From Lachnospiraceae bacterium (GTDB taxonomy: Bacteria > Bacillota > Clostridia > Lachnospirales > Lachnospiraceae): a DNA stretch of 64,000 bases. The stretch lies in the NCBI GenBank assembly GCA_015057325.1, contig SVEQ01000007.1, positions 1 to 64,000 of the forward strand. Reading direction: 5' to 3'. The translations under genes were made by a program, and so were the position numbers. The notes beneath the pieces are model-generated. The model was not told the origin of the DNA. It ran no database searches and saw only the letters and a program-made list of their open reading frames with translations. Positions 1 through 41,307 of this stretch are shown piece after piece (position 1 is the stretch's first letter; each line of letters begins with the position of its first letter).

Positions 1-88
1 ACAGATAATCTCACGCTGTTTCGTTATGTACGAAAGTGCATCAAATCAGCCAACACGTAACGTTCGCGATGATGCGAACCGCTTGCGG
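1..88. other. palindrome-rich non-coding stretch before repeat copy 1
   Basis: No gene is recognised here. The stretch holds three short perfect inverted repeats: TTTCGT/ACGAAA near 19-35, GTTCGC/GCGAAC at 62-67 and 74-79, and CCGC-TT-GCGG at 79-88. The last ends exactly where the 322-bp repeat shared with position 40674 begins. The sequence is not shared with the region in front of the second copy, so it may be flanking DNA or part of a variable element. The left end is cut by the window. Confidence 0.4.
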
Positions 89-410
89 CGAGTCGCGTGC
101 GTCAGCTGTTTGGGTACATTTTGAACCAACAGACAGCATACTTGGTTTTAATGTATTATGATTCATGTTTGACATTTGGTAGGATATTAGAGTTACTTGG
201 TATTACGATGAATATACAGCGGTTGCCGAACATGGATGTTCGGCATGTTCCATTGAGACAGGATGTCGAATTGGAACAGTGCCGCGTAATATAAGAAAAC
301 TTTTCCGTAATACCTAGAAACTCTTATATCCGGACAATCAGGCATACATGAACATGATACATTTAAAAATAAGTATGCGTCCGTTCTCAAAATGTAACTA
401 AACAGCAATT
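89..410 (+). repeat. 322-bp dispersed repeat, copy 1
   Basis: By direct comparison this stretch matches 40674-40995 in the same orientation, with only two mismatches seen, both close to the right end (396 and 398). It contains a perfect hairpin (GCCGAACAT-GG-ATGTTCGGC, 225-244), a TGTTCCA/TGGAACA inverted pair just after it, and an ATAAGA/TCTTAT pair further on. A GTG-initiated frame of 65 codons (97-294) is open in both copies, but the palindromes and lack of a ribosome-binding site in this copy make a structured or mobile element as likely as a gene. Family unknown. Confidence 0.85.
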
Positions 411-39280: not shown

Positions 39281-40489
39281 ATGTTAAGTTCAAACAATCA
39301 AAAGAAAATCAAAGACATCCTTAATGAGTGTCCGGATAAAATTGTTATAAGCAATCCTTCGTCAAAGGATAATGAATACAAAAAGGCCGTAATACGAAAA
39401 TATGAGAAAAGTGAAGGCGTAGCCTATCAGATAGAACGCTTTACAGATAAGCAGGCATTTCATGAGAATGTAAATGTTACCGGAATGTGCGAGGCTGTTC
39501 TTTTGATGTTTCCGGAATCATTTACTCAGCTCAATGTTTTTGGGAGCGAGCGTCAGTGGGACTTCAAGGTTACCAAAAAGGGAAAACTTTTATCCTCTGA
39601 CAGATTAATAAGAAAGACTAACAACAATTCAAAAGAAGGTCTTATAACTTCCGGTGCCGGATGTAAACCTTCCTATAATAATCACAATCGAAAGAAGAAT
39701 TATATCTTGGAGGAAGGAACGGTTATACCACCGCTTGTTGATCTGGGCATTTTTACAAAAGAGGGCAAGGTTGTTAATTCCATGTATGACAAGTACAAAC
39801 AGATTAACCGCTTTTTGGAATTGGTGGAGGATGTTGTCAAGAACCATGAGATAAAGGATAAATTCAATATAATAGACTTTGGATGTGGCAAATCATATCT
39901 TACATTTATTCTATATTATTATCTCGTAGAATTAAAAGGTATAAATGCCACAATAACCGGACTTGATTTGAAAGCGGATGTAATTAAGAAATGTAATGCG
40001 ACCGCCAAGAAGTATCATTATGATAATCTTCATTTCGAACTCGGTGATATAAATGGGTACAAAACGGATAAGCCTGTAGATATGGTTGTGACCCTTCATG
40101 CCTGTGACACTGCAACGGATTTTGCGCTGTATAATGCAATCACGTGGAAGGCGGGTATCATACTTTCCGTTCCATGCTGTCAGCATGAAGTAAATGCACA
40201 GCTTGCAAGCGATGACTTCTCGATACTTACACGATACGGAATCGTCAAGGAACGTGTGAGTGCTCTTATGACAGATGCAATCAGAGCTAACATGCTTGAG
40301 TACTGTGGATATCACACACAACTTCTCGAGTTCATAGATATCGCGCACTCACCTAAGAACATACTTATTCGTGCGGTACGCCATGACAATTCCTCGAAGG
40401 AACGCCGCAACAAAGCGTTGGAGGAAGCGAAGCGCCTTTGTGAGGAGTTCAATATAAAACAGACATTGATGCAACTTCTTAATAAATAG
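39281..40489 (+). CDS. class I SAM-dependent methyltransferase
   Basis: A 402-residue protein. The first ~175 residues are a lead domain of unknown role; the second half is a Rossmann methyltransferase with motif I IIDFGCGKSYLTFIL, the acidic ribose contact GLDLKADV, and VTLHACDTATDFAL, followed by SVPCCQHEV. The latter motifs fit the Methyltransf_32 type, related to RNA or protein methyltransferases of unclear substrate. It stands alone between DUF2752 and the second copy of the 322-bp repeat. Confidence 0.85.
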   Translation: MLSSNNQKKIKDILNECPDKIVISNPSSKDNEYKKAVIRKYEKSEGVAYQIERFTDKQAFHENVNVTGMCEAVLLMFPESFTQLNVFGSERQWDFKVTKKGKLLSSDRLIRKTNNNSKEGLITSGAGCKPSYNNHNRKKNYILEEGTVIPPLVDLGIFTKEGKVVNSMYDKYKQINRFLELVEDVVKNHEIKDKFNIIDFGCGKSYLTFILYYYLVELKGINATITGLDLKADVIKKCNATAKKYHYDNLHFELGDINGYKTDKPVDMVVTLHACDTATDFALYNAITWKAGIILSVPCCQHEVNAQLASDDFSILTRYGIVKERVSALMTDAIRANMLEYCGYHTQLLEFIDIAHSPKNILIRAVRHDNSSKERRNKALEEAKRLCEEFNIKQTLMQLLNK

Positions 40490-40673
40490 ATTGCTGTTTA
40501 ATGCACTTTTATATATGACGGACGCGTATAGATTATCAGATGTATGCATATCCTGTGTCAGAATGTCCGGTGCTAAGAGGTTGTAGGTATGCCGACAACA
40601 CTTTCATATAATACGCGACCGGCTATCAATTCGCCATCGTGGCTCAATGATGCCTTGCTCGCCATCCATGGCT
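40490..40673 (+). other. intergenic stretch with a possible short ORF start
   Basis: No established gene. An ATG at 40589, with AAGAGG ten bases before it, opens a 96-codon frame that runs into the repeat and ends where the copy-1 frame ends. The first 28 codons are unique to this copy. A perfect palindrome GCCAT-CC-ATGGC (40661-40672) abuts the repeat, just as a different palindrome abuts copy 1. Whether the frame is translated is unknown. Confidence 0.35.
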
Positions 40674-40995
40674 CGAGTCGCGTGCGTCAGCTGTTTGGGT
40701 ACATTTTGAACCAACAGACAGCATACTTGGTTTTAATGTATTATGATTCATGTTTGACATTTGGTAGGATATTAGAGTTACTTGGTATTACGATGAATAT
40801 ACAGCGGTTGCCGAACATGGATGTTCGGCATGTTCCATTGAGACAGGATGTCGAATTGGAACAGTGCCGCGTAATATAAGAAAACTTTTCCGTAATACCT
40901 AGAAACTCTTATATCCGGACAATCAGGCATACATGAACATGATACATTTAAAAATAAGTATGCGTCCGTTCTCAAAATGTCATTAAACAGCAATT
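40674..40995 (+). repeat. 322-bp dispersed repeat, copy 2
   Basis: Same sequence and orientation as 89-410, offset 40585, with two mismatches near the right edge. It carries the same perfect hairpin (40810-40829) and flanking inverted pairs. This copy ends 42 bp before the -35 box of the S10 ribosomal operon, so it borders the promoter of one of the most strongly expressed operons. No target-site duplication or terminal inverted repeat was recognised. Confidence 0.85.
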
Positions 40996-41037
40996 TGGGA
41001 TTGTACGTGAAAAAATACAATTTTATAAAAATACCGC

Positions 41038-41066
41038 TTGCAATGGCGTAAAATGTATGGTATAGT
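41038..41066 (+). promoter_or_regulatory. sigma-A promoter of the S10 operon
   Basis: TTGCAA, 17-bp spacer, TATAGT. The transcript start would be near 41073, giving a leader of about 235 nt before rpsJ. Confidence 0.8.
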
Positions 41067-41072
41067 GACTTT

Positions 41073-41307
41073 TGCTGTGACATTGATAGCGTAGAAGCGT
41101 GAGGTTGCTACTTAATAAAGTAGGTTTTCCGTGGAGCGAATGTCAAGTCTAGATACTGACGACAAGTCACTGTACAATATACCATCCGCAAGGCGGAGAT
41201 GACGTGTGATAAGTTTTGGAATGAATAATTTTAGGACACACACGGGAGAGTGTACAGTCACCACTTGTCGTACTACTAATAAGTGCGAAAAGGAGGCGGC
41301 TTTTTTT
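41073..41307 (+). promoter_or_regulatory. structured S10 operon leader RNA
   Basis: The leader can form two domains. Domain 1 is closed by TGACATT (41078-41084) with AATGTCA (41139-41145) and contains hairpin CTACTT-AATA-AAGTAG. Domain 2 is closed by CGACAAGT and ACTGTAC (41160-41175) pairing with GTACAGT and ACTTGTCG (41252-41270), and contains CCGC/GCGG and CGTGTG/CACACG stems. A seven-T run lies between the AGGAGG site and the ATG. In E. coli L4 represses this operon through its leader; a similar role here is inference. Confidence 0.65.

Follow-up and report, generated by a model that had tools for sequence, protein, structure and literature searches.

In a Lachnospiraceae genome (G000, 3.05 Mb in 24 contigs), the initial 64 kb of contig 23, referred to here as the window, carry two stretches of 322 bp each, at positions 89-410 and 40674-40995, which lie in the same orientation and differ only at 396/40981 (A/C) and 398/40983 (C/T). 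This near-identity, with its two differences near one edge, had been described in an earlier note and is borne out by a recount from the sequence; it raises the question of what these stretches are and how they came to be so alike. They do not form the mere pair that the note implied. The genome instead contains 48 full and partial BLAST matches to the 322 bp and 25 matches to the Rfam RNA family TwoAYGGAY (RF01731, clan CL00106), and comparison of the flanks of 19 matches shows that the 322-bp copies are a fragment of a larger composite repeat.

A typical element is composed of two long hairpin units that are arranged back to back with a linker hairpin between them. Its boundaries are TTGCTGTTTA...TAAACAGCAA, so that both outer ends are TTGCTGTTTA when read inward. 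The earlier note's remark that clear terminal repeats are lacking was therefore wrong, as such repeats delimit the larger element. Unit A bears the TwoAYGGAY RNA, a long rod tipped by a pair of small hairpins whose loops read A(N)GGA, and the linker hairpin that leads to the second unit lies near GCGATGATGCGAGCCGCTTGCGGCGAGTCGCG. The second unit is either B, a diverged TwoAYGGAY, or C, which lacks an Rfam match, and in some elements an A core is nested inside a B outer stem. Paired RF01731 matches within one element are divergent in all five cases in G000 and all seven in other genomes of the genus, according to a table read by eye. At two loci outside the genus (L148 and L169) two TwoAYGGAY matches are arranged in tandem on one strand, unlike these divergent pairs. 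L011 and L020 each include a TwoAYGGAY unit with more than 100 extra bases that form a further hairpin region inside the core. Unit C, found in L004, L008, L010, L014, L016 and L018, is a structured stretch of about 290 bp whose outer end is the same; a search of its region in L008 against Rfam at E values up to 1 matched only the adjacent TwoAYGGAY unit.

In the window, element 1 (1-408, plus strand) lacks its left part since window base 1 is also contig base 1, and its right end, TAAACAGCAA, closes at 408. It comprises the end of a unit B (1-60, minus strand), identical in sequence to that of the L003 element, a linker hairpin region between its two units (61-100, no strand assigned, limits set by eye) and a TwoAYGGAY RNA at 175-338 on the plus strand, whose GGA hairpin loops are found at 230-239 (ACATGGATGT) and 258-266 (ACAGGATGT), both on the plus strand. 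Element 2 (40491-40993, plus strand, 503 bp) runs from TTGCTGTTTA at 40491 to a TAAACAGCAA closing at 40993. Its TwoAYGGAY RNA (40760-40923, plus) and plus-strand loops (40815-40824 and 40843-40851) have the same loop bases as copy 1, and both RNAs score 101.9 bits against a gathering cut-off of 43. Compared with L003, the unit B of element 2 (40491-40673, minus strand) is missing the inner half as well as some of the linker, owing to either a deletion or an assembly collapse; what is left of this second unit still matches model R1 at 40595-40681 on the minus strand with 56.2 bits. The earlier note had also reported a different perfect palindrome before each copy. Both palindromes exist but belong to the element itself, the first being its linker hairpin and the second the hairpin of the truncated TwoAYGGAY unit on the opposite strand. 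At the two positions where the window copies differ, an A-type end, TAACTAAACAGC, is changed into CATTAAACAGC, as is found in B-type ends, and this hybrid A/B end recurs on contig 3. Judged from the sequence, such a switch is what a conversion tract would give.

The check proposed in the earlier note, namely BLASTN against the genome, definition of the exact ends and a search for empty sites in relatives, revealed many copies, defined ends and empty sites, all in support of the mobile-type repeat that it had considered. Element end 1 has 46 matches at up to two mismatches and element end 2 has 31 at up to three, compared to none for either reversed control. Among the loci examined 17 elements could be delimited intact, at lengths of 385-829 bp; all 17 carry the terminal inverted repeats, four of them with a single alteration at the left end, although they were chosen by a pattern for those very ends. 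A search with the end pattern across genome contigs yielded 12 stretches, of which 10 originate from the Lachnospiraceae MAG RUI386, while single stretches in a Bdellovibrionaceae MAG and a Saprospiraceae MAG were taken as chance. L240, a predicted end in G010, gave no match and is not an element. In agreement with the note there is no transposase gene inside, as no frame of 100 aa is closed within 1-408 and element 2 is overlapped by one mechanical frame on the minus strand (40778-41083). Target duplications were likewise absent: duplications of 2-4 bp are not consistent across the 17 elements, with a short match in a few such as L008, and none was seen on comparison of filled with empty sites, most clearly for L012 against G009. 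Because of this absence strict membership of the MITEs is not claimed. The element is almost certainly a dispersed repeat of mobile type. A hand tally places no fewer than 28 of the 48 contig ends of G000 inside the repeat or no more than about 270 bp from it. The repeat limits the G000 assembly and accounts for short-read assemblies breaking at it.

The elements are mostly placed beside stop codons. With genes taken as mechanical frames of at least 70 codons, a stop codon lies 0-4 bp from the element in 10 of the 17 intact elements. In three more the gene frame enters the element by 11 bp and ends at a TAG, and the remaining four show neither arrangement. Only 3.7% of the 6426 intergenic bases of the window are that near a stop, which corresponds to a binomial probability of 7e-11 for 10 of 17, a value that overstates targeting because the sites available are already restricted by the close packing of operons and by selection against damage. 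Element 2 itself follows a gene with a methyltransferase domain (Methyltransf_32; 39281-40489, plus strand) whose TAG stop lies 1 bp before it, and in the G010 copy of the methyltransferase gene the TAA passes straight into an element. On its other side element 2 is followed by an S10-Clostridia ribosomal protein leader (41084-41165, plus strand) located before rpsJ; a sequence similar to this leader is present in most of the genus genomes compared. The Rfam type of RF01731 is Cis-reg, and a frame start lies 19-28 bp from an element end in 8 of the 17 elements, both of which would suit a leader that regulates the downstream gene in cis. Against this, some elements, L003 and L056 among them, are located between convergent genes, a promoter-like sequence recognised by eye follows the element at the S10 site, and a 2010 table rates TwoAYGGAY as probably not cis-regulatory (PMC2864571). 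A cis-regulatory leader is thus a very improbable explanation.

The placement also fits a selfish, MITE-like composite repeat that settles in the least harmful sites and whose fold would be incidental to a DNA hairpin used for movement, with no role for CsrA. The terminal inverted repeats, the lack of a gene and the free swapping of outer stems and units all favour such an element, and part of the evidence that weighs against it comes from the structure. Apart from the score, the membership of the window copies in TwoAYGGAY is reflected in loops close to AYGGAY, ATGGAT in loop 1 and ACAGGAT, off the exact consensus, in loop 2, as well as in a covarying stem in which 30 of 39 pairs are changed on both sides among 10 sequences, the structure having been predicted from the same 10. 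This set was used for the model because in alignment A1, which covered 21 diverse units, the 3' half was poorly aligned. Across 33 units of the genus the cells of the model pairs comprise 1191 Watson-Crick pairs, 28 G-U, 8 A-C and 59 others, and the surplus of G-U over A-C speaks against a DNA by-product. So does strand stability, which favours the GGA strand in 32 of the 33 genus units and 21 of the 26 wider ones; the same test picks out the RNA strand in 17 of 17 S10 leaders, which served as control RNA. At least two GGA hairpin loops are present in 50 of these 59 units, against 5.3 expected from dinucleotide shuffles and 1 of 59 on the antisense strand, although the GGA, strand and pair counts are all biased upward, since most units were found by covariance models containing GGA loops and the covarying structure was derived from the sequences it was scored on. 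Copies that share a genome are also not independent of each other. GGA is confined to a single loop in unit B of L003, L007 and L011. In the 21 class-wide units, all eight invariant columns fall within the two GGA hairpins, which again argues against the selfish alternative.

The 33 genus units derive from 38 sense-strand matches above 100 bits, from which four were left out as presumed identical, having a score equal to that of a retained row (window 40760, L005 1929, L009 1928 and L008 1571), and one because of a large insert (L011 1320). For the wider set of 26 units, 24 sense-strand matches below 100 bits were taken together with L147 and L155; partial or odd matches (window 40595, L232, L159, L162, L167 and L148 1290) were left out. 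The structure is RNA-like on one strand, the GGA strand, and very probably the repeat has been selected as RNA.

Comparison with relatives bears on the age of the insertions. The S10 site was compared in 26 genomes of the genus and a usable empty site was found only in G016, and sixteen other sites were compared in eight relatives. Alignments across the junction revealed empty sites for L012 (in G009, G006 and G001), L016 (in G019, G001, G023 and G024) and L009 (in G006), while five further two-piece alignments have gaps of just 64-134 bases, too short for an element. In the sister genome G010, which is the MAG RUI386 of the same genus, about 15 of the 16 sites are occupied at or near the same place on one reading of the alignments; occupancy is exact to the base at no fewer than eight, L009 is off by some 75-80 bp, and several matches are approximate. 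The left flanks of L007 and L011 touch each other in G006, lie close together in G019 and G009 and are apart in G000, whereas in G010 a single 441-bp element stands between them. This reflects either rearrangement at the repeat or a misassembly. The earlier note had expected deletion or duplication between the direct repeats, and rearrangement at copies is to that extent indicated at one site.

The units that fill the shared sites differ between the two genomes. Within G000, 18 elements have a match of 93-99% elsewhere in their own genome, but the best piece in 22 same-site comparisons with G010 is 72-96% identical in 16 and there is no alignment of 90 bp in the other six, even though the G010 flanks at the compared sites match at 76-100%. 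Some of these sites are filled by different units in G010. The window copies, 99.4% alike, have best G010 fragments, among those examined, of only 79.8% and 85.3%, and many G010 fragments end at contig ends. At the same or another site in G010, 7 of the 18 elements (L006, L012, L014, L016, L018, L020 and L045) have a match of 95-99%, with L014 and the G010 locus L241 sharing 98.6%. The G000 and G010 assemblies are drafts with breaks at the repeat, and units may therefore be misplaced. The earlier note had offered recent spread as one reason for the near-identity. A recent burst of transposition would explain copies that are up to 99.4% alike in G000 and 100% alike in G010 fragments, yet it fits poorly with sites that are nearly all filled in the sister genome, at least eight of them to the base, with other unit sequences, and is considered improbable. 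Conversion or recombination between copies, which the note had also raised in part, fits better. On the best reading of these comparisons, the insertions would mostly be old, with units converted, homogenised or shuffled between sites, and the window subtype would have taken over several sites in G000.

TwoAYGGAY was predicted to bind CsrA by Gardner and Eldai in 2014, with validation still to come (PMC4333381). Among 391 genomes of the class, searched for RF01731 with stricter filters and counted for both features over the same genomes, RF01731 occurs in 36 (27 above the cut-off and 9 below the gathering score), csrA in 125 and both in 31. Hence csrA is present in 31 of 36 genomes with RF01731 and 94 of 355 others (Fisher 2.2e-12, which treats related genomes as independent), and by family, with 86 families defined as the highest label printed per genome, in 12 of 12 with RF01731 and 25 of 74 others (p 1.2e-5). 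Five of the 36 RF01731 genomes are without csrA, two of these being 95% and 98% complete. No such link between csrA and RF01731 is seen at genus level, where 7 of the 11 genomes carrying RF01731 have csrA, as do 13 of the 15 lacking it, one of the 13 (G020) being below the cut-off. The four genus genomes that contain RF01731 and lack csrA are 91, 90, 80 and 70% complete, and in the 91% complete G003, which has seven copies, csrA was not found. G000 itself has the genes for FliW, CsrA and FlaG in a row. The missing link within the genus is what a selfish repeat without a CsrA role would produce, but the association across families and the structural evidence make that explanation unlikely.

The preferred and reasonably likely reading is a MITE-like composite repeat whose RNA units are candidate docking sites for CsrA on transcripts produced by read-through. 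A CsrA dimer bridges two loops, and the two TwoAYGGAY loops presumably resemble the SELEX consensus. That the units bind CsrA is predicted and probably correct. The RNA would arise when transcription of the gene ending at the element reads through into it, and as two TwoAYGGAY units in one element point outward, the unit nearer the exit of a two-unit element would lie in the GGA sense. The two loops could be held by one CsrA dimer, and therefore the copies may jointly act as a dispersed CsrA decoy and also place CsrA sites on the mRNAs that carry them. A net effect of the copies on CsrA regulation is only tentatively proposed. Somewhat more speculatively still, a transposable-type repeat might spread and then homogenise the binding site of a global regulator, with two-unit copies sending the CsrA-binding module out both ways from between genes, tens of transcripts forming a distributed CsrA sponge and insertion at stop codons rewiring the CsrA network.

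ERIC, RUP and NEMIS are MITEs, and the present repeat shares with MITEs its terminal inverted repeats, strong folds and lack of a transposase (as defined in PMC3049150), but differs from them in having no consistent target duplication and a back-to-back construction of two units. The BOX elements of Streptococcus pneumoniae are likewise composite and modular, occur in many copies, fold if transcribed and have spread in the past and do so slowly now, as appears to be the case here. Their ends and modules are different, and the passages on BOX mention neither GGA hairpins nor a placement at stop codons (PMC3049150). CsrB, RsmY and RsmZ, which sequester CsrA, similarly present GGA in hairpin loops that are generally paired (PMC4333381, PMC4383904), but these are free-standing sRNAs, whereas the repeat occurs in many copies in or beside the putative transcripts of other genes. 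TwoAYGGAY itself, with its two GGA loops on a long rod, is known as an RNA motif (PMC2864571) and predicted CsrA-binding RNA, whereas the present elements carry it as one building block of a dispersed repeat that is paired and has defined ends. In the literature on CsrA with mobile elements, repeats and Clostridia or Lachnospiraceae, no description of TwoAYGGAY as a dispersed repeat was found, and a search for CsrA-binding together with Lachnospiraceae returned nothing. A 2024 review of MITEs makes no mention of CsrA, and in the one paper found to contain both CsrA and miniature inverted-repeat the two terms stand in separate passages. What is new here is that a candidate CsrA-binding RNA forms the core of a dispersed composite repeat, mostly located beside stop codons.

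At the time the TwoAYGGAY prediction appeared, CsrA-sequestering RNAs were, according to that account, known solely from Gammaproteobacteria (PMC4333381). If the repeats do bind CsrA, some Clostridia would accomplish the task of an sRNA gene with dispersed repeats, and insertions of mobile type would decide which transcripts meet CsrA. An Rfam family of so far unassigned role also gains an anatomy of paired outward units, exact ends and stop-codon sites.
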